DNA of 64,000 nt from Stieleria varia (GTDB lineage: Bacteria > Planctomycetota > Planctomycetia > Pirellulales > Pirellulaceae), in NCBI RefSeq assembly GCF_038443385.1, contig NZ_CP151726.1, forward strand, positions 124,001 to 188,000. The letters run 5' to 3'. Shown in pieces: positions 32,027-53,310 of this stretch; position 1 is the stretch's first letter, and the number at the start of each line of letters is the position of its first letter. The notes under the pieces are model-generated. The model saw nothing but the letters and a program-made list of their open reading frames with translations. It ran no database searches and was not told the DNA's origin. A program made the translations under genes and the position numbers.

Positions 32027-32317
32027 GGGTTTTAAGAAGTGAACGCTCCCACCATGGAGAGCCGCGGAAGCGGCGGAAGCGTAAAGCCTGGGACGTAAGT
32101 CCCAGGTCTCGTTTCGCAGCGAACCCGATCAAGCCCCGAAGGCGGCGACAGATTGTGAGTGATACCCTCGCGTCTCTGTCGCCGCTTCGCTGACATGGCA
32201 ATGTGGCACCCCATGGGGCTGACGCCCCATTCTTTATGCTCCCGTCGCATCCGCGACGGTCACGGGCGCCAAAGTTGATTGGCGACATCAGTCACTTTGA
32301 TCAGCTTTTAAAACCCC
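32027..32317. mobile_element. MITE-like element, copy 2
   Basis: 291 bp, GGGTTTTAAG (32027) to CTTTTAAAACCCC (32317). It differs from copy 1 by loss of one of two CGGCTTCGC-type units near 32190. The flanks of the two copies also share CTCAACGTCTGCGCGTTGGG on the left. Confidence 0.6.
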
Positions 32318-32385: not shown

Positions 32386-32477
32386 GCTTAACGGTGCGGT
32401 TCAGCGGGTGGCGGCGAGCGATTTAGCCATTGCGAAAACGGTCACTACCGCCACCCCGTTGCAACCGATGGTTCGCC
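32386..32477 (-). repeat. attC-like recombination site (cluster 1, a)
   Basis: Boxes GCTTAAC (32386-32392) and GTTCGCC (32471-32477). The stems CGGTTCAGCGG.GTGGCGG and CCGCCACCCCGTTGCAACCG pair except for two extra bases in the right arm, the extrahelical pattern of integron attC sites. The cassette on its right begins with the matching GGCGAAC at 32909. Confidence 0.65.
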
Positions 32478-32818
32478 GTTCTTTTCGAGTTTGTAGTCGC
32501 GTACGGATCGACGCCAGCGGATCGGAGCCCCGATTTCCAAGCGGCGTACATCAAATATATGAAGCCGATCTGGGGAATCCAAGCACAAACTGTCCCGGGC
32601 ACAACCCCGATAGCGGACGTCGGGGAATCAAGTATCGCCGCCACCGAATACGCAATGCACAGCATTAACACCAATACACTCGTCGCAATGCCGTATCGAG
32701 TGTTCCGTGTCGTGCCGTACCGAGAAATCGTGAAGGCAATGGCTGGGCCAAAAATATACGTTATTGCTAGGGCCGTCACTGTTCCGGGCAAGCCAAGCAT
32801 TCGAGCGATCGCAAACAC
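32423..32818 (-). CDS. Small membrane protein in an attC-bounded cassette
   Basis: 131 residues from GTG 32818. At least two or three TM helices (VTALAITYIFGPAIAFTIS; SVLVLMLCIAYSVAAIL; GFIYLMYAAW). The open frame continues upstream in coding-like fashion (QFRIHHLLVATTVLA), but the only candidate start there is CTG at 32893, so the true start is unclear. The last 20 or so residues are encoded by the attC-like site itself. Function unknown. Confidence 0.6.
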   Translation of the reverse strand: MFAIARMLGLPGTVTALAITYIFGPAIAFTISRYGTTRNTRYGIATSVLVLMLCIAYSVAAILDSPTSAIGVVPGTVCAWIPQIGFIYLMYAAWKSGLRSAGVDPYATTNSKRTANHRLQRGGGSDRFRNG

Positions 32819-32908
32819 CGTTGCAAGGACGGTAGTTGCAACAAGTAAGTGGTGGATACGGAACTGAGTCGGACGAGCGATGTGTTCGTTCAGTGCATGT
32901 CCTTTGTC

Positions 32909-33000
32909 GGCGAACGTTACCGATCACCCGGTCGGCGCGGTTGATCTTCCACTGCCGAATCGCCCCGACTCGCCGACTCGGGTGCATCGGCTGGATTGCC
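32909..33000 (-). repeat. attC-like recombination site (cluster 1, b)
   Basis: Box GGCGAAC (32909-32915). The stem CCGATCACCCGGTCGGCG pairs with CGCCGACTCGGGTGCATCGG apart from two extra bases on the right arm. The right box GATTGCC (32994-33000) is degenerate (GAT instead of GTT). Confidence 0.6.
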
Positions 33001-33426
33001 CACTTGGTCTGCTAGCGGCGGGAGATAGTCTACCATCTCGTGAGACCATCGCGGATCACCGTCCGAATGTTCAATTGGAGATTCAGAGATTGAGTGGATG
33101 TATCGGTCGACGAGGACATCATAGTCGTCGCGCGTCTCGTATGTCGGCCGGAAATCGTCACGCAGTACCCGTAGTTGTGTGAGAACATTGTCGACGTTGT
33201 CGTTTTCCAGTTCAACGATCGTGTTTTGAATCAAGTCTTTGGTCGCTTCTGAGAAGTAAACATTGGATTGGACGCGATCCAGGGATCCGACGATCCATGC
33301 AACCCCGAACGACATTGCGATCGCACAGATCCCCAACGTGATTCGTGTGGTGCGGTTGTCGTAGAACTCGGAGATCAACCAAGCGATGGGCAAAGCGACG
33401 ACGAGCAGCAGGATCAATTCGAGCAT
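32917..33426 (-). CDS. Membrane-anchored hypothetical protein in a cassette
   Basis: 169 residues. Two N-terminal TM helices (LELILLLVVALPIAWLI; ITLGICAIAMSFGVAWIVG), then an acidic soluble part with helices (LIQNTIVELENDNVDNVLTQL) and a proline/charge-rich tail. About 27 C-terminal residues are read from the attC-like site because its box lacks the usual TAA. No family recognised. Confidence 0.7.
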   Translation of the reverse strand: MLELILLLVVALPIAWLISEFYDNRTTRITLGICAIAMSFGVAWIVGSLDRVQSNVYFSEATKDLIQNTIVELENDNVDNVLTQLRVLRDDFRPTYETRDDYDVLVDRYIHSISESPIEHSDGDPRWSHEMVDYLPPLADQVGNPADAPESASRGDSAVEDQPRRPGDR

Positions 33427-33461
33427 CGGCTGGCACTGTCGTTAAAGTCACTATCTCGTTC

Positions 33462-33551
33462 GACGAACGGTAGACATCACGGGGGACGGACGAAAGATTT
33501 TCCATTCGAGCAAAGCTGCAAGCCGTCCTCCCGTGCATGTCATGGTTCGCT
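33462..33551 (-). repeat. attC-like recombination site (cluster 1, c)
   Basis: Boxes GACGAAC (33462-33468) and GTTCGCT (33545-33551). Stem GACATCACGGGGGACGG pairs with CCGTCCTCCCGTGCATGTC except for two extra right-arm bases. It lies about 100 bases left of the IS110 element. Confidence 0.7.
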
Positions 33552-33708: not shown

Positions 33709-35274
33709 ATGGTCTCTCGTACCAAGTCTACCAGAAAGAACAGCAACAAGTCTTCCAAACGACGCTACATCGGCAAGCCCGGTGGCGTCATCCAGGAAAG
33801 AGTCCTGAAGGTCGGTCCGCAACGATTTGGGATCGTTGCGGTCGACTGTGCAAAGCGGCGATCCAAATGGATGCTCTGCGATTTCTACGGACGTGTCATC
33901 ATCGAACCGACCGAAGTGGATCACGAACGTGGGACGCTCGATGCAATGGTCATGCGAGTCCTCGAAGCTTGCCAAGCAGAAGGAATACAGGACTCTATCG
34001 TCGCCGTCGAAATGACCGGTATCTACCACAAGCCGGTGCAACGTGCGTTTCGCAAGGCGGGCTTTGACACACGCACGGTTCATCCCTTCGCATCGGCACA
34101 CTACAGAGGAGCACTGCACCCGGACAACAAAACCGATGACAACGATCTCGAAGCGATCTTCCTCGCCGCTGCCGCTGGATACGGACTGTCGGTGTTTCCA
34201 GTCGACGAGACCTATCGTTCGCTCCAAAGGCTCGCACGTCACCGCCGTAACTTGGTCAAGCAGCGTTCCAGACTGAATGTTCAAATCAGAGTTCTCATGC
34301 ATCAGACGATGCCAGGCTACGCGGACCTTTGGGAAGAAGACAAACTGTTCAGCCACTCGGTTGCAATGCTGATCGCAAAAAACTTCTCGTCGGCCGAGTC
34401 GATCAAGAAAGCCAAACAGGCCGGCTTGGCAAAATACTTGCGACGCTCCAAAACACGATTCCAAGAACGCACGCTCGACAAGATTTATGCATGGAGCCTG
34501 CAAGCGGCCGAGCCCGATCCACTTATCGAACTATTAACCGAGCAGTGGAAGCAACTGCTGGAGTTGCGTGACATGCTTTCTGCACAGATCACTCAAACGG
34601 AAAGGCAATCGGCATCATTTCTCGCTAAAACGCCGTACATTCTGCTGCTTTCGATCAAAGGCATCAACGTTGTCTCAGCATCGGAGTATGCCGGCGAAGC
34701 AGGTCCGATTGAGCACTATGCTTCCGCCACCGCAATCAACGGTCGTGCTGGTCTTTATCCGTCACGATACCAAAGTGACGAAGTCGACCGCACCGACACG
34801 GTTGCCAAGAACTGCAACCGACGACTCCGCGCGGCTTGCATCTTGTTGGCCAAGAACCTCATCAAGTGCCATCCCTACTACCGCGGGTTATCGGCCGTCT
34901 GGGCGACGCGAAACATTAAAACTCAAGATCGCAATTGTCGAATGGCCAACCGGGCCAATCGGATGGTATTTCAGATCGTCAGCGGTCGCCAAGTGTGGCG
35001 TGGCAGAGGCATTGATTGCGAGGCGATTCTGTTCAAGCTACGTGAATTCCATCACGCGCACGCGACGCCACTGGATCAAACCGTCGCTCACATGAACGAG
35101 GCTTATCAATGGCTTCCCAAGTCGGTGCATCAAACCGAAGGCAAGCCGTTAGCAGAGCTGGCGGGCAAGAAGCGGCGGGGCACCTCATCGATCGGCGAAT
35201 TACTGATCCCACTTCTTATTCGACTTGGAGTTCGCGAAGCGAGCGAGTTAGAATCAAAGACGTCCGAAGCTTAG
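33709..35274 (+). CDS. IS110-family transposase
   Basis: 521 residues, long for the family, which is usually about 340-450. N-terminal RuvC-like DEDD domain: Asp46 (GIVAVDCAKRRSKW), Glu101 (VAVEMTGIYHKPV), Asp143 and Asp146 (KTDDNDLEA). C-terminal Transposase_20 part: LLLSIKGINVVSASEYAGEAG and GRAGLYPSRYQSDEV with the likely catalytic Ser. Recombination in this family is guided by a bridge RNA from a non-coding end. A basic N-terminal extension (about 35 residues) and a long C-terminal tail are unusual. The frame is intact. Confidence 0.93.
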   Translation: MVSRTKSTRKNSNKSSKRRYIGKPGGVIQERVLKVGPQRFGIVAVDCAKRRSKWMLCDFYGRVIIEPTEVDHERGTLDAMVMRVLEACQAEGIQDSIVAVEMTGIYHKPVQRAFRKAGFDTRTVHPFASAHYRGALHPDNKTDDNDLEAIFLAAAAGYGLSVFPVDETYRSLQRLARHRRNLVKQRSRLNVQIRVLMHQTMPGYADLWEEDKLFSHSVAMLIAKNFSSAESIKKAKQAGLAKYLRRSKTRFQERTLDKIYAWSLQAAEPDPLIELLTEQWKQLLELRDMLSAQITQTERQSASFLAKTPYILLLSIKGINVVSASEYAGEAGPIEHYASATAINGRAGLYPSRYQSDEVDRTDTVAKNCNRRLRAACILLAKNLIKCHPYYRGLSAVWATRNIKTQDRNCRMANRANRMVFQIVSGRQVWRGRGIDCEAILFKLREFHHAHATPLDQTVAHMNEAYQWLPKSVHQTEGKPLAELAGKKRRGTSSIGELLIPLLIRLGVREASELESKTSEA

Positions 35275-40804: not shown

Positions 40805-42325
40805 ATGAGTACAAAGAAACTTACTGTGGTGTCACTCTCGGTCGCTGGGGTCTCCCTAGTGATTTGGACGCTCGTCATTGCGATGATCATCAGCAGAAGA
40901 ACACAGACGGCATCCGATGGATTGGTCGCGTCCGAATCGACAACCATGTCCGCAAGCCCAAAGTCAACGGATCCCGAGAGCAAACCGGATTTGGAGACGA
41001 TTGCAAAGAAAGCCGCGAGTGAATTACGAAAAATTCCGACGCCCAGCAAGAGTCGACTCGCCGGCGCGTTGGAAGGAAAATTTCCCTTCCTTCGATTTTG
41101 GGAGTCTTCGCTCGATTGGGCTTACGACGACGTATCGGGCAACATGGCAATGTTCGGGTACGAGAAATATGTTGCCATCTTTGATCTCTCTAAGCTCAAC
41201 GGAAAAGACATTCCGCCGACCGAGATCGACCTGACTTTCAAACCGCAGGCCATTGGGCTCAAGAAATTCGCTGACAAAAGCTACTTCTTGGTTGTGGGAG
41301 AGCGAGATCTCATGCTGATTGATGCTCATACCAAAAAGGTCGTCAAAACCGGCAGGATATCCTTCGGCGACTTCGTCCATGTGTTCGATTGCGTTGATCG
41401 GAAAGACCCGACAATTCTTGCCAAAAAAGTCGGCATGTCGAGATACGATAATTTAGCCACACCCATTCAAAAAGTCGAAGGTCGGCATGGGAGTTCGAAT
41501 ACCATCGCAATCAATATCGAAACGCTTGAAAAAACTCGTGCAGTCTTCGGCCTTGTCTTCGGTGTTTCTCCAGATCGCAGTGAATGCTTGTTCATAACAG
41601 AGACTCCCAAGCCCAAGCAAATGCGTCTTGGATACTGGCCCAAGGACCCGACCAAAATGTTCAAGGCAACCGCTTCGACGGAAAAATGGCCTGACTCGGC
41701 GTCCATCCGACTCATTGGCGACGTCGTTGCGTTCGACAACGTGCTCTACAACCGTGACCTCCAGGAGATTGGCAAAACCGCGTTTCCTGCTCAAGCTCAA
41801 ATGCCAGGCACCGCCTATCTCGCCTGCAGTGACGGATTCACTTTCGAGATTGTGTCGGTAAACGATCTCAAGCCGCTTTTCACCTACCGACTGCCAAAAG
41901 GTTGGGATGAGATCCTTGAGCAATCGCCGACTCGTGAAGTATCTCCTCGCGTGATCTGCGATGCCAAGTACAGACGTTTTCTGTTCTATCGGCGCGGCCA
42001 TCTGATTGCATTTCCGCTGGATCAGCTGGGGCTGGCTCCGCTGTCAAGTGTGCACTTCACTTGGCGTGATCACACGCAGCTTGAGGCCGATTCGCCTTGG
42101 CAACTGCAACTCACCGGCAACGGCGAGTTGGGTGATCTCTCACTTGAAGACGCTCCCAGCGGTTTAACGATTGATGGCTCGACACTCGCCTGGGTGCCAA
42201 CCTCCCAGCAGCTCGGAACGCATACTTTCTCGATCATTCACAAATTGGGTCAGTCGCAACAGAAACGCTCCATGACTTTGACCGTTCAACAGGACCCGGT
42301 CCAGGTGGAGAAGGATTCATTATGA
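40805..42325 (+). CDS. TM/beta-propeller-like protein B
   Basis: 506 residues. N-terminal TM helix (VVSLSVAGVSLVIWTLVIAMI), then a propeller-like body (ENFPFL, YEKYVAIFDLSKLNGK, YFLVVGERDLMLIDAHTKKVV) and a C-terminal Ig-like PIG domain (LSLEDAPSGLTIDGSTLAW). It looks like a version of protein A without the zinc ribbon. Its stop overlaps the start of gene C (ATGA). Confidence 0.8.
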   Translation: MSTKKLTVVSLSVAGVSLVIWTLVIAMIISRRTQTASDGLVASESTTMSASPKSTDPESKPDLETIAKKAASELRKIPTPSKSRLAGALEGKFPFLRFWESSLDWAYDDVSGNMAMFGYEKYVAIFDLSKLNGKDIPPTEIDLTFKPQAIGLKKFADKSYFLVVGERDLMLIDAHTKKVVKTGRISFGDFVHVFDCVDRKDPTILAKKVGMSRYDNLATPIQKVEGRHGSSNTIAINIETLEKTRAVFGLVFGVSPDRSECLFITETPKPKQMRLGYWPKDPTKMFKATASTEKWPDSASIRLIGDVVAFDNVLYNRDLQEIGKTAFPAQAQMPGTAYLACSDGFTFEIVSVNDLKPLFTYRLPKGWDEILEQSPTREVSPRVICDAKYRRFLFYRRGHLIAFPLDQLGLAPLSSVHFTWRDHTQLEADSPWQLQLTGNGELGDLSLEDAPSGLTIDGSTLAWVPTSQQLGTHTFSIIHKLGQSQQKRSMTLTVQQDPVQVEKDSL

Positions 42326-43704
42326 AAATCACAGTTTCCTGTCCAAACGGGCACAAGATCTCTGCGACCGCTCGATCCGAGAAACGGCGAGTGAAATGCC
42401 CAAAATGTGGAGCGCCCTTTGAGATACCAAGCGCAACGGTGCCTGAGTCTCTTTCTACTGAGCCGCTTTCTACTGAGCCAGTGCCCCCCGAACCAATGCC
42501 CTCTGAGCCAGTGCCCCCCGAGTCAGCACCGTTGGAGGTCGCGTCTCTCGCTTCAAGTTCAGAATGGGCATCGGTCCCGGGTCACGATTTGTCCGATGAC
42601 AATCTATTTGGCAAGTCATTTGAGCCGTTGTTCGACTCCAATGCGAACTCCCCGGCAGCGTTTCCCGATCCATTGGCGGCAACGTTCCCAGAAGTATCGG
42701 CCAGCGCGTTCCCGATGGCTCCTGCCGCAACGTTCCCCGTTCCACAGGTTCAACCCGAGCCTGCTCAGCCGAGCCCCGGCAAAGAGGATGCGCAGCAAAA
42801 GCAACGATTGGCTCCTCTGTGGTTGATCGGTTCTCTTTTGGGAAGCTCACTTTCTCTGATCGCTGGACTTACCGCGTTGCTATTTGTATTGACCCATCCG
42901 CAACTGGGGCGACCACAGATCAATCCCATTTTGCGTTGGAATTTCGGTGTCGGAGATCACTTTGAGGTTTTCACCAAGAACTCAGACATCACACGCAATG
43001 TCACGCTCGATGTATCGACCAAAAGCAATGTCAGTATCTGGGAGCGGTGGCAGGTGACGGATGTGGATCCGGCGGGAAACGCTACGATCGAATCGGCGAT
43101 CACCAGGATGGTGATCGAAGTTGAATCGCCAGGAAACGTTTTCATTTTCGATACCAACGAGGAAGATGTGACGTCGAAACACGAGACGTTGGGTGCGAAC
43201 ATTCGCCCGGCGATTGGGCAAGCGGTTCCTCGAACGGTCAGTCCCCAAGGAGAAGTGTCCAACGTTCAACCGCCCGAACGCCTCCGGTCACTCAATCTGA
43301 TCGGTAATCTGACTCTCGAAAAACACGCCACCTCGTTCATGATGAAGACGCCCCAGGGTTCAGTCTCTCCAGGTGATCAGTGGCAGAGCGAGGAACCAAA
43401 AGAGTTCTCGGGGGTTCATATCACGAGGTTAAACGAATACACGTATAAGGGTGCTCAGCAGCAAGCTGATAAGATTCTCCACGCTGTGACATCCAGTCAG
43501 AAAACCCGAATTGATCAAGTCCCTGAGGGTAGCTCCTTAAAAATCGTCGGCGAAGACTCCACGGGAGAATACCTTTACGATTTGCAAGCAGGCCACTTGG
43601 TTCGATTCACATCCACCGCATCGGCAACTCAAGTGGTTGGTGAAAATCCTCCGACAGAAGTAAACATGCAAACGCAGATCCTGATGACGGTAGAAAAGCG
43701 ATAG
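42322..43704 (+). CDS. Zinc-ribbon/TM protein C
   Basis: 460 residues. The MJ0042-type ribbon (VSCPNGHKI ... VKCPKCGAPF) is followed by a Pro/Glu/Ser-rich repeat linker (EPVPPEPMPSEPVPPES and similar), one TM helix near residue 175 (LLGSSLSLIAGLTALLFVL) and a beta-rich external domain, DUF6263-like in feel (ERWQVTDVDPAGNATIESAITRM). Function unknown. Last gene of the A-B-C operon. Confidence 0.82.
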   Translation: MKITVSCPNGHKISATARSEKRRVKCPKCGAPFEIPSATVPESLSTEPLSTEPVPPEPMPSEPVPPESAPLEVASLASSSEWASVPGHDLSDDNLFGKSFEPLFDSNANSPAAFPDPLAATFPEVSASAFPMAPAATFPVPQVQPEPAQPSPGKEDAQQKQRLAPLWLIGSLLGSSLSLIAGLTALLFVLTHPQLGRPQINPILRWNFGVGDHFEVFTKNSDITRNVTLDVSTKSNVSIWERWQVTDVDPAGNATIESAITRMVIEVESPGNVFIFDTNEEDVTSKHETLGANIRPAIGQAVPRTVSPQGEVSNVQPPERLRSLNLIGNLTLEKHATSFMMKTPQGSVSPGDQWQSEEPKEFSGVHITRLNEYTYKGAQQQADKILHAVTSSQKTRIDQVPEGSSLKIVGEDSTGEYLYDLQAGHLVRFTSTASATQVVGENPPTEVNMQTQILMTVEKR

Positions 43705-45429: not shown

Positions 45430-45983
45430 AAACTTCTCGCACCGAGGTGTCTCTGGGTCGATCTGGCAACCTGGAAGTATCGATCGATCAGACTCGACTT
45501 TGTTCCACTTGATTGGCTTTCAAGCTTCAACGGTAGCATTCGGTCGTCCGAATCCCTGAGTGCCATTTGTCGTCGTCGCTCACTCCACTTCTGGGGCATA
45601 CTCGAATCGGCACGACTGGATGCCGTGGTCGATCAAGAACCTCAGGGTCCTCACCGGTTACCTGATTGACGTGATGTGTAGCGTGCGTGAGCCGACCAAG
45701 GCGAACAGCAAGCGTTCTTCGGGGCGCCGACTCCGGGTCTCTCCACGAAGCTCGCCAATGACGCGTCGCGGAGTGCTGCCTTGGGGCATGCACAAACCTT
45801 GGGCACTGTAAACCACTGGATAGGGGCCAACAGGTACCAAATTTCGGAGCGATTCCCGTTCACAGCCGCGCACACCACCCACAGTCCATTCATCCTCACT
45901 CCCTTTCTGCCTGCCTCGTTGTAGAAAGCCAGGGCTTCAACGACTGACTTCGCCCACCGGTCTTATACAGCCGCTGCAACACT

Positions 45984-46043
45984 CAATACTGGGCCTGTCA
46001 ATACTGGGCCTGTCAATACTGGGCCTGTCAATACTGGGCCTGT
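45984..46043. repeat. Tandem repeat, 4 x 15 bp
   Basis: Four perfect copies of CAATACTGGGCCTGT. 45430-45983 holds no gene that I can support; a minus-strand frame at 45651-45899 is Cys/Trp/Pro-rich and unconvincing. Confidence 0.9.
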
Positions 46044-46133
46044 GGTTAGCAGTTACCCAGGTGGGATCTCCCCCGCTCGTCAATCAGACCTTGCCAGTCC
46101 GCACGTGCAACGGTTTGTTCTGCCGTGTCCTTG

Positions 46134-46535
46134 TTAGCTGACTTCAAATCGAAACTGCGCGTACTCGTTACGCGCAATCCGCAAGCAGTTTGCCAGTGAT
46201 TCAAGAACTGAGCAAATGCAATCGGGTTCTTCGAAGCGTCCAGCCATTTTGGGATCGGTCTTGATCGCAGCGATCATACCATCAATTGTTTCAAGGCCAT
46301 CATCAATCGAAAACCATTCGTCCCATTCACCCAGTATTTCGTCAAGTTCGTCAGGATCGCCGTCAAAGTCTTCGGGAACGTCACGGTTGTCGCCAAAGGC
46401 TGTAAAGGGAGTGAGGCTGAGTTCTCGCGCGATGCTGTCGAGTGCGGCATGTTCACGCAACAAGAGTTTACCGTCAGCGTCAAATGACGCGGCAGGGACT
46501 CGCGGATGGAAAACGGGGTAAACTTCAGCACCCAC
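46134..46535 (-). CDS. Cassette hypothetical protein (133 aa)
   Basis: Start GTG 46535, seven bases after a strong GGAGG; an ATG just upstream is out of frame. Acidic protein (VPEDFDGDPDELDEILGEWDEWFSID). The stop TAA lies in AGCTAAC (46133-46139), as in other cassette genes, but no full attC stem follows, so the left edge of the array is decayed. No family recognised. Confidence 0.7.
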   Translation of the reverse strand: MGAEVYPVFHPRVPAASFDADGKLLLREHAALDSIARELSLTPFTAFGDNRDVPEDFDGDPDELDEILGEWDEWFSIDDGLETIDGMIAAIKTDPKMAGRFEEPDCICSVLESLANCLRIARNEYAQFRFEVS

Positions 46536-46553
46536 GACATGGCCTCCTCAAAG

Positions 46554-46642
46554 GCAGAACGGCGGCGTTGACCGAGCGACGCCATTGTGGTGTCCATGTT
46601 CATCCGGCCGATGCGTCGCTTCGGTCCAACGCATGGTTCTGT
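46554..46642 (-). repeat. attC-like site 1 of the main array
   Basis: Boxes GCAGAAC / GTTCTGT. Stem GCGTTGACCGAGCGACGC pairs with GCGTCGCTTCGGTCCAACGC, leaving two extra bases in the right arm. Confidence 0.75.
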
Positions 46643-46975
46643 CGTCTTCTTTAGCGGCACTGTACCGCTGGGATGCGACCATTGGATTGTATCGCATGCT
46701 CGGACCGCACTGCAATTCGAGCCCTGATTTCGCTCCTGATTTCGTCCCGCCGACGATGTGGCCGAAGTCGAATGCTGAGGCCGGACCGTCACACGCGATC
46801 CAATGGCAACAGATGATGATACGAGTCCTGGATCGCCAGCACACGATCTCATGCACAACAGTTCGGCGAGAGGACGCATTGCCGAAGTCAACAACATGCT
46901 GTCGGCCCCAAGATCTGCCAACTCATTCGACTGGTCGATCACTACATCGAGACGCGACGATCGAGCACTGTAACG

Positions 46976-47064
46976 ACAGAACGGCGGCGTTGACCGAGCG
47001 ACGCCATTGTGGTGTCCATGTTCATCCGGCCGATGCGTCGCTTCGGTCCAACGCATGGTTCTGT
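46976..47064 (-). repeat. attC-like site 2
   Basis: Boxes ACAGAAC / GTTCTGT; same stem as site 1. 46643-46975 is the body of a repeated cassette with no convincing gene. Confidence 0.75.
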
Positions 47065-47394
47065 CGTCTTCTTTAGCGGCACTCTACCGCTGGGATGCGA
47101 CCATTGGATTGTATCGCATGCTCGGACCGCACTGCAATTCGAGTCCTGGTTTCGTTTCTGAATATGTCCCGCCGACGATGTGGCCGAAGTCGAATGCTGA
47201 GGCCGGACCGTCACACGTGTTCCAATGGCAACAAGTGGTTCGAGCATCCGGTCGACCACACTCCATTTCACTCGCAACAGTTCGGCGAGAGGACGCATTG
47301 CCGAAGCCAACAACATGCTGTCGGCCCCAATATCTGCCAACTCATTCGACTGGTAGATCACTACATCGACACGCGACGCTCGAGCACCGTAACG

Positions 47395-47485
47395 ACAGAA
47401 CGCAGAGATCACCCAGCCGCGGCGGTGGTCTCTTGTGGTATGTAACGACGACACCCGCGGCTTGGGTGCATCGACATGGATCATC
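47395..47485 (-). repeat. attC-like site 3 (218-bp cassette type)
   Basis: Left box ACAGAAC, right box GATCATC (degenerate). Stem GATCACCCAGCCGCGG pairs with CCGCGGCTTGGGTGCATC with extra right-arm bases. Confidence 0.6.
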
Positions 47486-47836
47486 GCGGTACAAGGAGCG
47501 ACGGTTGGGAAGCATCGCCGCCCGTTGCCATTGTACCGGTTGAACTCGACCGTGGGCAATTCGATCACTCTGATCAGTGCCTGCCTCCACTCTGCACTCG
47601 ATCACTAGCCGCGTTGATCGCAGAGATCACCCAGCCGCGGCGGTGGTCTCTTGTGGTATGTAACGACGACACCCGCGGCTTGGGTGCATCGACATGGATC
47701 ATCGCGGTACAAGGAGCGACGGTTGGGAAGCATCGCCGCCCGTTGCCATTGTACCGGTTGAACTCGACCGTGGGCAATTCGATCACTCTGATCAGTGCCT
47801 GCCTCCACTCTGCACTCGATCACTAGCCGCGTTGAT
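47401..47836. repeat. Tandem duplication of a 218-bp cassette
   Basis: 47401-47618 and 47619-47836 are the same sequence. A third copy with a few changes is at 51409-51626. Only short frames are open. Confidence 0.85.
47613..47703 (-). repeat. attC-like site 4 (218-bp cassette type)
   Basis: Second tandem copy of site 3; left box is GTTGATC instead of ACAGAAC. Confidence 0.6.
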
Positions 47837-47919
47837 CGGCGGCGTTGACCGAGCGACGCCATTGTGGTTTCCATGTTCATCCGCCCGATGCGTCGCTTCG
47901 GTCCAACGCATGGTTCTGT
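47831..47919 (-). repeat. attC-like site 5
   Basis: Left box GTTGATC, right box GTTCTGT; stem as site 1. Confidence 0.7.
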
Positions 47920-48252
47920 CGTCTTCCGAGGCGGCACCGTACCGCCGGGATGCGACCATTGGATTGTATCGCATGTTCAGACCGCACTGCAATTCGAGCC
48001 CTGATTTCGCTCCTGATTTCGTCCCGCCGACGATGTGGCCGAAGTCGAATGCCGAGGCCGGACCGTCACACGCGATCCAATGGCAACAGATGATGATACG
48101 AGTCCTGGATCGCCAGCACACGATCTCATGCACAACAGTTCGGCGAGAGGACGCATTGCCGAAGTCAACAACATGCTGTCGGCCCCAAGATCTGCCAACT
48201 CATTCGACTGGTCGATCACTACATCGAGACGCGACGATCGAGCACTGTAACG

Positions 48253-48344
48253 ACAGAACGTTGGCGTTGACCGGGCCGCCGCCAATCAACATTGACTTCA
48301 AGAACGACGCGACCGGCGGCTCCGCGTCCAACGCTTTGTTCGTC
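48253..48344 (-). repeat. attC-like site 6
   Basis: Boxes ACAGAAC / GTTCGTC. A different stem (GCGTTGACC...GCCGCC with GGCGGC...GTCCAACGC), again with an extra right-arm base. It follows the four-helix-bundle gene. Confidence 0.7.
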
Positions 48345-48361
48345 AGGCCTTCCGAGTTCGG

Positions 48362-48676
48362 TCATTGGGCATCGTACTCGTACTCAGCATCGCGGTACTC
48401 GTACTCGTAAACACGCAAGACATCGTGGATCGAAGCACATTCGAGTGCCGAACCGCGAGCGATTTCGAAGAAGCGATTCTTGTCCTTGAGGCTTTGTTTG
48501 CCGTTGCCCTCTGCGATGTTCAGTGGAATCGACTGGGCCGCTCGGAGCCATTGGTCATGCGCCGGTCGATTCATTCCGGTTAGGCCTTTGGCGATGCCGT
48601 ATGAGAACGCGACGTAGTCAATCGAGAGGCGATAGACGTCCAGTCGTTCATGGTCGAAAGTCGGTTGCGCCATCAC
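48362..48676 (-). CDS. Four-helix-bundle (23S rRNA intervening-sequence-type) protein in a cassette
   Basis: 104 residues; Met 48676 or the next Met 48673. ERLDVYRLSIDYVAFSYGIA, then HDQWLRAAQSIPLNIAEGNGK and KNRFFEIARGSALECASIHDVL match the S23/IVP four-helix-bundle family. Some members sit inside rRNA intervening sequences, others in mobile contexts; the role is unknown. The C-terminus turns into a YEYEYRDAEYEYD tail from a GTA-CGA repeat that also occurs at the other end of the cassette (48690-48725). The cassette is bounded by GACGAAC/GTTCGTC. Confidence 0.88.
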   Translation of the reverse strand: MMAQPTFDHERLDVYRLSIDYVAFSYGIAKGLTGMNRPAHDQWLRAAQSIPLNIAEGNGKQSLKDKNRFFEIARGSALECASIHDVLRVYEYEYRDAEYEYDAQ

Positions 48677-48733
48677 GCTCCTTTCGAGTACGAGTACGAG
48701 TACCGTTGCACTGAGTACGAGTACGACTTGCCT

Positions 48734-48824
48734 GACGAACGATAGGGTTCAGCGGGGCCGCGCGAGCGACTGACCACTTCAAAAAACGTCAACTCGCGGC
48801 CTCCGTTGCAACCCATGGTTATTT
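48734..48824 (-). repeat. attC-like site 7
   Basis: Boxes GACGAAC / GTTATTT. Stem GGGTTCAGCGGGGCCGCG pairs with CGCGGCCTCCGTTGCAACCC with extra right-arm bases. It belongs to the DinB-like cassette. Confidence 0.75.
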
Positions 48825-49394
48825 GGCGTTCTCTTCGTCGGCGAAAACGCTGCGACTGGCCTTGGTGCCCCAAGTTCGGTTGTTGTGATCGCCAGACAAA
48901 CCGGGCGCAATTGTTAGCCAGCGCCACTCGCCATCGTGGACCATGCGTGCGATCATCACAATCTGGCCGACGTGATATGTCAAATGAGTTACGGAGCGAG
49001 TGAGTGCTGCCGCGATTGTATGCGATTCACCCCTAATGAATATGGTCTGACCGACGTTCTCAGCGTCAATTGATTCGATCGCGTTGACAAACGCTGACCA
49101 ACCGCGATCAAAGTACTCGATCAGCGATTGCCGGTCTCCATCCCAATCAAGAAACTCGGCATCACGATTTCGGTCAGGCTTTTCTCCGTCGGTGGTCAGG
49201 TAGTCTGTCCATCGGCTTTGAAGGTTGCCTCCAAGGTGGCGCAGGATTATCGCGACCGAGTTAGAGTCCTCCTTTGGACGCGAGTGGAGTTCGGCATCGG
49301 TCAATTGTGCGATGGTGGCGTCGATCATACGTCGGTAGGACGCAACCGTCTCACGCATCGCATCGAGCCATGTTGTCGAGTCGCACATTTTCAT
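48819..49394 (-). CDS. DinB/DUF1572-like protein in a cassette
   Basis: 191 residues. WLDAMRETVASYRRMIDATI start, HLGGNLQSRWTDYLTTDGEKP and THLTYHVGQIVMIARM end: the DinB-like four-helix fold with metal-binding His (HLGGN; THLTYHVGQI). Members are thiol transferases or of unknown function. The TAA stop lies inside the AAATAAC box of attC site 7, and the gene starts 13 bases after the matching GTTATTT at its other end, so gene and cassette coincide almost exactly. Confidence 0.92.
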   Translation of the reverse strand: MKMCDSTTWLDAMRETVASYRRMIDATIAQLTDAELHSRPKEDSNSVAIILRHLGGNLQSRWTDYLTTDGEKPDRNRDAEFLDWDGDRQSLIEYFDRGWSAFVNAIESIDAENVGQTIFIRGESHTIAAALTRSVTHLTYHVGQIVMIARMVHDGEWRWLTIAPGLSGDHNNRTWGTKASRSVFADEENAK

Positions 49395-49402
49395 CGTGAG
49401 CC

Positions 49403-49491
49403 AAATAACGGCGGCGTTGACCGAGCGACGCCATTGTGGTGTCCATGTTCATCCGGCCGATGCGTCGCTTCGGTCCAACGCATGGTTCTGT
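49403..49491 (-). repeat. attC-like site 8
   Basis: Boxes AAATAAC / GTTCTGT; stem as site 1. Confidence 0.75.
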
Positions 49492-49822
49492 CGTCTTCCG
49501 TGGCGGCACTGTACCGCTCGGATGCGACCTTTGGATTGTATCGCATGCTCGGGCCACACTGCAATTCGAGCCCTGGATTCCGCTCCTGATTTTGCCCCGC
49601 CGACGATGTGGCCGAAGTCGAATGCCGAGGCCGGACCGTCACACGTGATCCAATGGCAACAAGTTGTTCGAGCATCCAGTCGACCACAATCCATTTCACG
49701 CGCAACAGTTCGGCGAGAGGACGCATTGCCGAAGCCAACAATATGCTGTCGGCCCCAAGATCTGCCAACTCATTCGACTGGTCGATCACTACATCGACAC
49801 GCGACGATCGAGCACTGTAACG

Positions 49823-49912
49823 ACAGAACGCTTGCCGTCAGCGGGCGGCGACGAAAGATTTACCATTCGTGCAACGGCAACTTCGCCGCTCCGTTGCACG
49901 GCATTGTTATGC
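49823..49912 (-). repeat. attC-like site 9
   Basis: Boxes ACAGAAC / GTTATGC. Stem GCCGTCAGCGGGCGGCGA pairs with TCGCCGCTCCGTTGCACGGC with two extra right-arm bases. Confidence 0.78.
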
Positions 49913-49931
49913 GGCGTTTGGGATTGAATCA

Positions 49932-50186
49932 ATGAAGATCACGTCATTTACAGATACATGGTATCCAGAGTGCATGAACCAAGTGCGTTCATCTTTTAGC
50001 GATGATGTGTCGCTAGATGCGGCGGCAATCGCAGATGCGATCATGGTTGCGGGAGCGTTTATTGCACAGTCGATTGACAACAGCATCGGACACACGGCAG
50101 AGGGTGGGAATGGTAGCACGTTGCTTGATGCGATCAACAATCTTGGGAGAGAGCTAAACGACATCGCTGACAAGTTTGTCGAGTGA
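49932..50186 (+). CDS. Cassette hypothetical protein (84 aa), copy 1
   Basis: MKITSFTDTWYPECMNQVRS, then an acidic helical body (DAAAIADAIMVAGAFIAQSID; LLDAINNLGRELNDIADKFVE). It fills the cassette: ATG 20 bases after GTTATGC, stop 8 bases before the next box. Its strand is opposite to the attC polarity inferred from the unpaired bases. The opposite strand is also open from box to box, but that translation is Ser/Ala/Pro-rich and less convincing. No family recognised. Confidence 0.6.
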   Translation: MKITSFTDTWYPECMNQVRSSFSDDVSLDAAAIADAIMVAGAFIAQSIDNSIGHTAEGGNGSTLLDAINNLGRELNDIADKFVE

Positions 50187-50193
50187 TTCGTCC

Positions 50194-50283
50194 GCATAAC
50201 GCTTGCCGTCAGCGGGCGGCGACGAAAGATTTACCATTCGTGCAACGGCAACTTCGCCGCTCCGTTGCACGGCATTGTTATGC
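50194..50283 (-). repeat. attC-like site 10
   Basis: Boxes GCATAAC / GTTATGC, perfectly complementary; stem as site 9. It separates two identical 371-bp cassettes. Confidence 0.8.
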
Positions 50284-50302
50284 GGCGTTTGGGATTGAAT
50301 CA

Positions 50303-50557
50303 ATGAAGATCACGTCATTTACAGATACATGGTATCCAGAGTGCATGAACCAAGTGCGTTCATCTTTTAGCGATGATGTGTCGCTAGATGCGGCGGCAAT
50401 CGCAGATGCGATCATGGTTGCGGGAGCGTTTATTGCACAGTCGATTGACAACAGCATCGGACACACGGCAGAGGGTGGGAATGGTAGCACGTTGCTTGAT
50501 GCGATCAACAATCTTGGGAGAGAGCTAAACGACATCGCTGACAAGTTTGTCGAGTGA
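50303..50557 (+). CDS. Cassette hypothetical protein (84 aa), copy 2
   Basis: Identical in protein sequence to the copy at 49932-50186, with a period of 371 bp, so the duplication is recent. Confidence 0.6.
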   Translation: MKITSFTDTWYPECMNQVRSSFSDDVSLDAAAIADAIMVAGAFIAQSIDNSIGHTAEGGNGSTLLDAINNLGRELNDIADKFVE

Positions 50558-50564
50558 TTCGTCC

Positions 50565-50653
50565 GCATAACGGCGGCGTTGACCGAGCGACGCCATTGTG
50601 GTTTCCATGTTCATCCGCCCGATGCGTCGCTTCGGTCCAACGCATGGTTCTGT
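50565..50653 (-). repeat. attC-like site 11
   Basis: Boxes GCATAAC / GTTCTGT; stem as site 1. Confidence 0.75.
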
Positions 50654-50983
50654 CGTCTTCCGAGGCGGCACCGTACCGCTGGGATGCGACCATTGGATTG
50701 TATCGCATGCTCGGACCGCACTGCAATTCGAGCCCTGGTTTCGCTCCTGATTTTGTCCCACCGACGATGTGGCCGAAGTCGAATGCTGAGGCCGGACCGT
50801 CACACGTGTTCCAATGGCAACAGATGACTCGAACATCCGGTCGACCGCACTCCATTTCACGCGCAACAGTTCGGCGAGAGGACGCATTGCCGAAGCCAAC
50901 AACATGCTGTCGGCCACAAGATCTGCCAACTCATTCGAGTGGTCGATCGCTACATCGACACGCGACAATCGAGCACTGTAACG

Positions 50984-51072
50984 ACAGAACGGTGGCGTTG
51001 ACCGAGCGACGCCATTGTGGTTTCCATGTTCATCCGCCCGATGCGTCGCTTCGGTCCAACGCATGGTTCTGT
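50984..51072 (-). repeat. attC-like site 12
   Basis: Boxes ACAGAAC / GTTCTGT; stem as site 1. Confidence 0.75.
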
Positions 51073-51402
51073 CGTCTTCTCTAGCGGCACCGTACCGCCG
51101 GGATGCGACCATTGGATTGTATCGCATGTTCAGACTGCACTGCAATTCGAGCCCTGGCTTCGCGCCTGATTTCGTCCCGCCGACGATGTGGCCGAAGTCG
51201 AATGCCGAGGCCGGACCGTCACACGTGTTCCAATGGCAACAGATGACTCGACCATCCGGTCGACCGCACTCCATTTCGCGCGCAACAGTTCGGCGAGAGG
51301 TCGCATTGCCGAAGCCAACAATATGCTGTCGGCCCCAAGACCTGCCAACTCATTCGACTGGTCGATCACTACATCGACACGCGACGATCGAGCACTGTAA
51401 CG

Positions 51403-51493
51403 ACAGAACGCAGAGATCACCCAGCCGCGGCGGTGGTCTCTTGTGGTACGTAACGACGACACCCGCGGCGTGGGTGCATCGACATTGATCATC
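51403..51493 (-). repeat. attC-like site 13 (218-bp cassette type)
   Basis: Left box ACAGAAC, right box GATCATC; stem as site 3 with small changes. Confidence 0.6.
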
Positions 51494-51620
51494 GCGGTAC
51501 AAGGAGCGACGGCTGGGAAGCATCGCCGCCCGTTGCCATTGTACCGGTTGAACTCGACCGTGGGCAAATCGATCACTCTGATCAGTGCCTGCCTCCACTC
51601 TGCACTCGATCACTAGCCGC

Positions 51621-51709
51621 GTTGATCGGCGGCGTTGACCGAGCGACGCCATTGTGGTTTCCATGTTCATCCGCCCGATGCGTCGCTTCGGTCCAACGCA
51701 TGGTTCTGT
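51621..51709 (-). repeat. attC-like site 14
   Basis: Left box GTTGATC, right box GTTCTGT; stem as site 1. The following cassette ends at ACAGAAC 52040-52046, the right edge of the array. Confidence 0.7.
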
Positions 51710-52053
51710 CGTCTTCCGAGGCGGCACCGTACCGCTGGGATGCGACCATTGGATTGTATCGCATGCTCGGACCGCACTGCAATTCGAGCCCTGGTTTCGC
51801 TCCTGATTTTGTCCCACCGACGATGTGGCCGAAGTCGAATGCTGAGGCCGGACCGTCACACGTGTTCCAATGGCAACAGATGACTCGAACATCCGGTCGA
51901 CCGCACTCCATTTCACGCGCAACAGTTCGGCGAGAGGACGCATTGCCGAAGCCAACAACATGCTGTCGGCCACAAGATCTGCCAACTCATTCGAGTGGTC
52001 GATCGCTACATCGACACGCGACAATCGAGCACTGTAACGACAGAACTACTAAG

Positions 52054-52174
52054 TTAAACCCTACTCACCCAGTGATATATCTGGATTTCGGGTAATATCA
52101 CCTAATCAAGTAGGGGTTAATACCTGAGAACACTCGTCTCGTCAAGTTGAGTGATATTACTCTTTTCACTCAAC
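52054..52174. promoter_or_regulatory. Nested inverted repeats at the right edge of the cassette array
   Basis: TTAAACCCTACT (52054) / AGTAGGGGTTAA (52109), inside it GTGATAT (52072) / ATATCAC (52095), then GTTGAGTG (52146) / CACTCAAC (52167). AT-rich and unlike the cassettes. It lies where an attI site and cassette promoter would be. 52175-53310 holds no gene I can support; a REP copy (GTGGGGCTGACGCCCCAC) is at about 52633. Confidence 0.4.
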
Positions 52175-53310
52175 TGAAGCAAGACGCACCGTCTTAGGAT
52201 CAATCGGATGACACTTTCAAGCTTTGAGGTCATGATGACATCGGCCGAGAATAATGTCGACGAGAACGACCGGGTCTGGTTCCCCAAATGGCTGCGGAGG
52301 TATGTGATGATGTTTCGCAATGGCGATGACGGACGAATTGACCGTCAATCTTGACTCGACACTGCGATTTTCTCGAATGCTGTTAGCCTCGGGTGCTCCC
52401 GCGTGGCAGCGTTGGCAAGCGGTGAGGGCGGTTGAATGAGGTGTGTGAGACGTTACGCAATCCTAAAACTTGCCCAACAAAAGGGAGGGCCTGCAATGCC
52501 GGAAGGCAATCTCAGGACGCCCGAATCGGACCTGGAGGAGCGTGGACACATTGACCCCAGGGAACCATCTAACGAATTTTGCAGTATCTGTCGCTGCCTC
52601 CGCAGCTTGATGAGATGTTTGTCGGTTGGACGTGGGGCTGACGCCCCACGCTTTATGCTGTCGCTGCCTCCGCAGCTGGAAGCGGTCACACGCAGAGGAA
52701 GTTTTCTTGTTCGATGGTCAACATCCATCGGCACGTTTGACCAACGCAGCAAAGTGCTGTGTCCCCCGGATCGTTTCCTAAGGACATTGAAACGACGATG
52801 AAGTACGTGCATGTCGAAGTGGGATTTGATGGCCGCTTGCAGAGTCCGATCGATCGGTTGCTGCAGGAAGGAGGTTGTCTTGGTGGTGGCAATTCAGATC
52901 GCGTATCGTCGGTGTGATATCAGACGTAGATTCGACGTGTTGGATGACGCCGGGTTGCCGAGTAGAGATGTGAGAACCGGACGTTCTCTATCGCGTGGCG
53001 GCTGATGGGTGCAGCTTGTTTGTTGAAGACGCATGGGGGGACTGCTCGCTTTGCTCGCCGGGTTAGCGTCTCGGAGAGACTCTGCGATGAATAAGTTCCC
53101 GCTTGCGGATTGTCGTTCGACTCTCCGAGTCGACAACGTACAGCGGAGAACGCTATCGACTTGGAAAGTCGAGCGACAATTGTTGACCGCACGTCCCGAG
53201 AGACGCTGCCACGTGGGTTGCCAGGATTTTTCGGGGGAAGGTGGGGGTGGCTTGGGGAGTGCAGTGCCCAGTGCAGTGCTGAGCGGCTGAAGCCTGGACT
53301 CCAACTCGTG

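Follow-up and report, generated by a model that had tools for sequence, protein, structure and literature searches.

The DNA analyzed here (the window) is a 64,000-nucleotide stretch of the Stieleria varia chromosome, a single contig of 9,719,866 bases on which it occupies C1:124001-188000; positions without this prefix refer to the window. It contains an array of 15 integron cassettes with their attC recombination sites, an attI site adjoining the first cassette, and fragments of an integron-integrase gene (intI) beyond attI. A sequence-only reading of the same DNA had noticed about fourteen attC-like hairpins at 46554 to 52046 and had taken them for a cluster of attC sites lacking an integron-integrase (CALIN), probably mobilized by an integrase elsewhere.

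attC sites and the cassette array

Hairpins ending in AAC...GTT were collected as a seed from loci fetched from the same chromosome. Six of 67 non-redundant sites were dropped, and of the remaining 61 we aligned 34 that were unlike one another; none came from the window, and the sites most like the window's were among those kept out. The covariance model built from this alignment matched 14 attC sites at 46554-51709, all on the minus strand, with E values from 1e-20 to 2.7e-8. A covariance search was the check proposed by the sequence-only reading, and it bore out the attC identity of the hairpins as well as their number and shape, with two extra bases on a constant arm.

The consensus stem has 17 pairs, and 15 of these show compensatory two-sided changes with pairing kept among the 34 sites. 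Two extra unpaired bases stand on the 5' arm in the minus-strand reading, one mostly G and the other an invariant A, about 6 bases apart. We take these bases to mark the L'' side of attC, which would make the minus strand the cassette strand. The structure of the hairpins is conserved while their sequence varies, and the extrahelical bases keep to one arm, as is looked for in attC. One-sided change (G-U) occupies a single cell among 34 sequences by 17 pairs, and stem variation consists almost wholly of Watson-Crick exchanges, which might fit a hairpin selected as DNA and not as RNA.

Eleven of the 14 sites scored 69 to 83 bits. The sites of the three cassettes of a 218-bp type (47395, 47613, and 51403) scored 38 to 45 bits and have the core GAT/ATC, not GTT/AAC. 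The earlier rule that the R'' box ends in AAC and the R' box begins with GTT holds at most sites and fails at these three.

Our attC counts come from the covariance model rather than from IntegronFinder. At E ≤ 0.001 we counted 246 attC sites over 24 loci, most of the sites coming from loci that had been selected for intI or a repeated cassette. Of these sites 227 belong to this chromosome (3 carry a flag because a locus end truncates them) and 19 to relatives, and orientation was uniform within each locus. A chromosome-wide search with the model gave at least 150 attC sites in about twenty clusters. The control, 306,553 bases from the 26 of 34 loci without Pirellulaceae in their title (L035 excluded), gave no model match at E ≤ 1. 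An Rfam scan of the window matched no family at the attC array; its one match was Acido-Lenti-1 RNA elsewhere (32060-32106).

The array reads from right to left, on the minus strand, as judged from the side of the attC bulge, from the strand of the cassette open reading frames (ORFs), and from the direction of intI at other loci. The DinB-like, four-helix, and 133-aa cassettes have their ORFs on the minus strand, the same strand as attC, and at four other loci the direction of intI is away from the array. The extent given in the sequence-only reading needs amending at both ends: its right end is the attI crossover and not only a last box, and an extra cassette lies at the left (Table 1).

attI and the remains of the integrase gene

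The attI block of 114 bases differs at 6, 6, 6, and 9 positions from those of four other loci, all intact integrons, of the same chromosome (92 to 95% identical). All five attI sequences agree up to ...TTAGTAGTT and then enter three different first cassettes, and we therefore placed the crossover at this point. An attI site adjoining the first cassette, as in a complete integron, is thus present. A predicted Pc promoter in this region has counterparts at the four other loci, which read TTGACG-17-TATTAT and point into the arrays. A promoter scan did not return the window's Pc-like copy; the scan rule demands a final T.

Fragments of intI start about 50 bp past the attI block. No match to the integrase profile (TIGR02249, cut-off 265 bits) is listed in the window, which means that the profile search misses these fragments, and no working intI was found beside attI, fragments only. 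The statement in the sequence-only reading that no integrase lies within 10 kb is thus right for a working gene and wrong for its remains. The dispersed repeat inside the dead intI reaches no more than 93% identity with its nearest copy, and in the C-terminal fragment the differences fall 6/1/10 by codon position. On this sequence evidence the array is a formerly complete integron that kept attI while its intI decayed, not one that never had an integrase; the label of a CALIN-type array stands as to the missing working intI and falls short as to origin.

Table 1. Features of the cassette array and its attI end, in order from intI to the distal end (window positions; I2 and I4 are other integrons of the same chromosome)
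Feature	Positions	Strand	Remarks
intI remnant, C-terminal	52780..52914	+	last 45 codons, 84% identical
Insert replacing intI codons 81-422	52437..52779	+	piece like other intI type plus dispersed repeat
intI remnant, N-terminal	52208..52436	+	residues 6-80, in two frames; tblastn with intact intI of locus L003
Predicted Pc promoter	52117..52145	-	TTGACG-17-TATTAA; found by eye in alignment
attI region	52044..52157	-	crossover G^TT at 52046-52044
Cassette 1 (adjoins attI)	51628..52046	-	419-bp type, apparently gene-less; attC 51621-51709; identical to I2 and I4 copies
Cassette 2	51410..51627	-	218-bp type, GATC start; attC 51403-51493
Cassette 3	50991..51409	-	419-bp type; attC 50984-51072; identical over 419 bases to C1:5362854-5363272 (I2)
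Cassette 4	50572..50990	-	419-bp type; attC 50565-50653; identical to I2 copy
Cassette 5	50201..50571	-	371-bp; attC 50194-50283; 84-aa ORF on +; identical to I2 cassette
Cassette 6	49830..50200	-	second 371-bp copy, identical to cassette 5; attC 49823-49912
Cassette 7	49410..49829	-	419-bp type (420 bp); attC 49403-49491
Cassette 8	48741..49409	-	DUF1572/DinB-like, ORF 48819-49394, PF07609 E 1.8e-67; attC 48734-48824
Cassette 9	48260..48740	-	four-helix-bundle protein, ORF 48362-48676, PF05635 E 4.2e-17, also TIGR02436; attC 48253-48344
Cassette 10	47838..48259	-	419-bp type (422 bp); attC 47831-47919
Cassettes 11 and 12	47402..47837	-	identical tandem 218-bp, GATC starts; attC 47395-47485, 47613-47703
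Cassette 13	46983..47401	-	419-bp type; attC 46976-47064; identical to I2 copy
Cassette 14	46561..46982	-	419-bp type; attC 46554-46642
Cassette 15 (distal end)	46117..46560	-	133-aa ORF 46134-46535; boxes GTTCTGCC/GGCAGAAC complementary

Cassette exchange and competing explanations

The sequence-only reading had advised looking for intI on the same replicon, and six intI genes without an internal stop were found there above the TIGR02249 cut-off (376 to 408 bits versus 265). Four are of one type, with 5 to 12 differences in 939 among three of them and 6 in 939 between the fourth (locus L006) and the first (L003). The two of the other type have 17 differences in 978, and identity between the types is about 35%. 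The intact intI nearest to the array lies about 126 kb away, at C1:42807-43745. The closest named relatives of the integrase are from Pirellulaceae, e.g., Aporhodopirellula, Neorhodopirellula, and Rhodopirellula, and 104 of 199 sampled genomes of the family have an integrase match above the cut-off. Matches at E ≤ 1e-60 are most numerous in this genome (six), followed by genomes with 5 and then 4, some of these matches being below the cut-off.

Cassettes in these arrays behave as single units. Among cassettes shorter than 1200 bp, with sites located by a hairpin finder in loci L014-L023, the boxes at the two ends of one cassette were complementary at 7 of 7 positions in 103 of 115 cases (shuffled mean, 15.6; maximum, 26), which generalizes what had been noticed on single cassettes of the window; the two boxes within one composite site were exactly complementary in only 19 of 140. 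The 419-bp cassette gave 54 matches in the fetched loci, of which 41 were full and 13 were partial and excluded from the border and neighbor tallies. Alignments of the full copies begin at the GTT box in 40 of 41 cases, and all 41 then have GTT or GAT at the expected base. Cassette borders thus fall at the box, as the sequence-only reading had expected from a comparison of related strains. Our comparison was made between arrays within one genome; related strains are not comparable at this site, because searching 13 other genomes of the genus for the neighboring gene (42322-43701) gave nothing at E ≤ 1e-20 and hence no empty site.

Of 41 copies of the 419-bp cassette, 6 had their nearest relative within their own array, against 5.3 expected by shuffling; the copies do not cluster by array, and the arrays draw on a common pool. 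Over 419 bases, no difference separates four of the window's seven copies from three copies in I2, which lies about 5.2 Mb away. Nor do the two window copies of the 371-bp cassette differ from the one in I2, where this cassette stands between unrelated cassettes, and for cassettes identical between the window and I2 the neighbors differ. From these patterns, cassettes move singly from array to array, probably by integrases acting in trans.

The window holds an integron array, composed of attI and 15 cassettes, whose own intI is fragmentary, and we think it likely that this array continues to receive cassettes through integrases from elsewhere on the chromosome. The proposal in the sequence-only reading of a chromosomal array mobilized from elsewhere is, to judge from the sequences, favored. 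IntI proteins from the intact loci would act in trans on the array, folding the bottom strand of attC, with recombination predicted at G^TT or G^AT, and this service would have continued after the local intI was lost. Loss of intI likely preceded the cassette exchanges, as the closest copy of the repeat in the dead gene is no better than 93% identical, against 0 differences in the cassettes; with that order of events, the array must have been served by integrases encoded elsewhere.

Several observations pull the other way. The intI gene of I2 belongs to the other type (35% identical), and its action on these sites is presumed. Two of the window 419-bp copies that are identical to I2 also match the first cassette of I4 exactly, the first cassette is the same in the window and in I4 and abuts attI in both, and window positions 50647-52157 are collinear with the intI end of I4 at 91%. 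Given this collinearity and the common attI-adjoining cassette, part of the array probably came with a duplicated integron rather than by insertion. In addition, the codon-position pattern of the C-terminal fragment indicates that much of its divergence arose in a functional gene, so that the loss of intI may be young.

That last point is what gives substance to the idea of a static array, filled by its local integrase before intI was lost recently. Pseudogenes of intI are common according to PMC2426708, and the 6/1/10 pattern points to divergence as a working gene. We nevertheless regard this history as unlikely: intI has five lesions or replacements, including a frameshift, the loss of codons 81-422, and foreign sequence no more than 93% like its nearest copy, and this lesioned gene adjoins cassettes with 0 differences to their I2 copies. 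Alternatively, homologous recombination or gene conversion, together with duplication of whole integrons, could have made the cassettes alike with no integrase acting in trans. The 1.5 kb collinear with I4 would be explained in this way, the repeated families offer ample homology, and several decayed integron-like loci have common flanks. Identity, however, ends at cassette borders beside unlike neighbors (the 371-bp cassette lies between unrelated cassettes both in the window and in I2), the 41 of 41 full 419-bp copies end at the G(T/A)T core, and copies do not cluster by array, all of which makes recombination between repeats a rather improbable source of the likeness.

The two remaining explanations deny that an integron stood here. 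Off-target insertion by a distant integrase, which drops cassettes at a chance site, is one published route to CALINs (PMC8618304), but it is contradicted by an attI site and intI remnants in proper place and order, and we consider it highly improbable. The hairpins could also be repeats of another kind, spread for example by a transposon, and the array does contain many near-identical copies of one hairpin. Yet hairpins unlike in sequence have one stem-and-bulge plan, within each of the 24 loci the matches, 246 in all and mostly from loci selected for intI or the repeated cassette, share one direction, and no Rfam family matched at the array, which leaves this explanation next to no credence.

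Among known systems, the array under study agrees with the definition of a CALIN, at least two attC sites and no integron-integrase (PMC9024848), in having at least two attC sites and no profile-detected intI nearby. It is unlike a CALIN in keeping attI, a Pc-like promoter, and intI fragments, so that its origin is known, and its 14 attC sites exceed the average of almost 6 that PMC9024848 gives. CALINs can be mobilized in trans, as reported in PMC12444791. Attributes in common with sedentary chromosomal integrons are attI, long arrays of similar attC sites, many cassettes with no assigned function, and, where the locus is intact, divergent intI genes; unlike those integrons, this chromosome has six intact and several decayed loci with one pool, and the local intI is dead. 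Duplication within a genome that leaves a functional integrase together with a near-identical pseudogene has been described (PMC2426708), which resembles the working integrase and dead copy seen here. The present case departs from the pseudogenes described there in the internal replacement of codons 81-422 and in having identical cassettes in common with an intact integron.

Published precedents exist for CALINs, mobilization in trans, intI pseudogenes, several intI genes per genome, gene-less cassettes, and GAT cleavage. In the literature on integrons in Planctomycetes and Pirellulaceae, a search thin on subscription papers found no title naming this case. What adds interest is that the arrays share one cassette pool, that apparently gene-less cassettes have been amplified on such a scale, and that one family has a GAT core. 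The mere presence of an integrase-less array is a poor guide to whether it is a dead relic or is served in trans; an array with a dead intI, together with six intact integrons and identical single cassettes on one chromosome, makes the question directly testable.

Apparently gene-less cassette families and neighboring elements

The two commonest cassette families appear, from their sequences, to carry no gene. In the 419-bp family no ORF is common to the copies and there is no codon periodicity (P = 0.38), so that a coding role, which we considered, is unsupported; single copies hold ORFs of up to 128 codons on the antisense strand. The body of this cassette has no clear RNA structure, with a consensus energy of -62 versus -54 ± 5 for shuffled columns (26 of the 41 copies). 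In the 218-bp family, counted after exclusion of one match shorter than 150 bases, the longest ORF has 57 codons, is antisense, and occurs in 9 of 26 copies. Upstream of these 26 copies, which come from the fetched loci, stand 20 different 16-base contexts. Each of the three window copies of the 218-bp family contains promoter-like matches, but the region total of 5 is close to the 2.6 expected. The cassettes of both families are candidate promoter suppliers or hitchhikers. In Vibrio superintegrons most of 29 tested gene-less cassettes act as sense-strand promoters (PMC11014356). The cassettes here are alike in apparently containing no gene; they are unlike the Vibrio ones in that two families reach 41 full copies and 26 copies in the fetched loci, and some copies hold chance ORFs above the 210-bp limit of PMC11014356.

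The 218-bp cassettes start with GATC in 25 of 26 copies and with GTTC in one, and the opposite box is GATGATC in all 26. Both sides have therefore changed from the canonical GTT/AAC to GAT/ATC, with complementarity kept at six of the seven box positions. Outside this genome, 13 others of the genus yielded the 419-bp cassette once, as its attC part only, and among 240 other genomes of the family the 218-bp cassette gave a single weak match of 91 bases (three candidates per genome scored). The site of that weak match, which lies in a genome of the same genus, carries canonical boxes, for which reason the GAT core of the family may be derived. GAT can reportedly be cleaved between G and A, with the second base of the triplet loosely constrained (PMC10127599), and GNT is the minimal motif for secondary sites of IntI1 (PMC10127599, PMC4618277). 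The GAT sites of IntI1 in those reports are off-target, whereas a whole amplified cassette family here has GAT as its fixed core. The amplified and apparently gene-less cassettes, GAT-cored in one family, offer a natural test of what attC needs and of cassette selfishness.

A broader picture is tentative, and we hold it to be somewhat less probable than an even chance: six integrases of two types would serve at least seven arrays, including the one with the dead intI, as a shared cassette economy whose main beneficiaries are gene-less selfish passengers, and the GAT/ATC-core family would still move, so that the defining attC triplet is not required.

The 133-aa protein of cassette 15 has 24 relatives and no assigned function, and the 84-aa ORF of the 371-bp cassettes (49932-50186 and 50303-50557, plus strand) opposes the cassette direction and has one relative, at 75% identity. 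Defense-system models run on five cassette ORFs matched none of them. The outer end of cassette 15 gave no match to the covariance model, and its terminal attC looks truncated against a flank common to other arrays. Several arrays end distally in a half attC fused to one common flank starting GCACGTGCGGACTGGCAAGG, with the joint inside the site and not at GTT (window 45480-46123; near C1:5352687, 8350978, and 7672792). Beside the distal array end, at 45983-46042, the 15-base unit TCAATACTGGGCCTG stands in four tandem copies.

More attC clusters with common flanks, some with short intI pieces, lie on C1 at about 369-385 kb and at 1.29, 2.55, 5.74, 7.18, and 7.67 Mb; by their make-up they are apparently additional decayed integrons. 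The flanks recur at many loci; an integron-sized mobile unit was considered and not adopted. An IS91-like element at cassette borders encodes a tyrosine recombinase and a Y2 transposase (PF04986 and PF14319; one copy tested), and its end is directly followed by GTT in 8 of 8 copies (C1:5359073, 6846482, 6838780, 6992186, 8772592, 8767840, 8749724, and 1295197), which fall in loci L015, L017, L027, L019, L022, L021, and L025. Within the window, three further attC sites lie at 32386-33551 on the minus strand (70 to 79 bits) with ORFs between them, and this small trio adjoins an IS110-type transposase gene (33709-35274) and the Acido-Lenti-1 RNA at 32060-32106.

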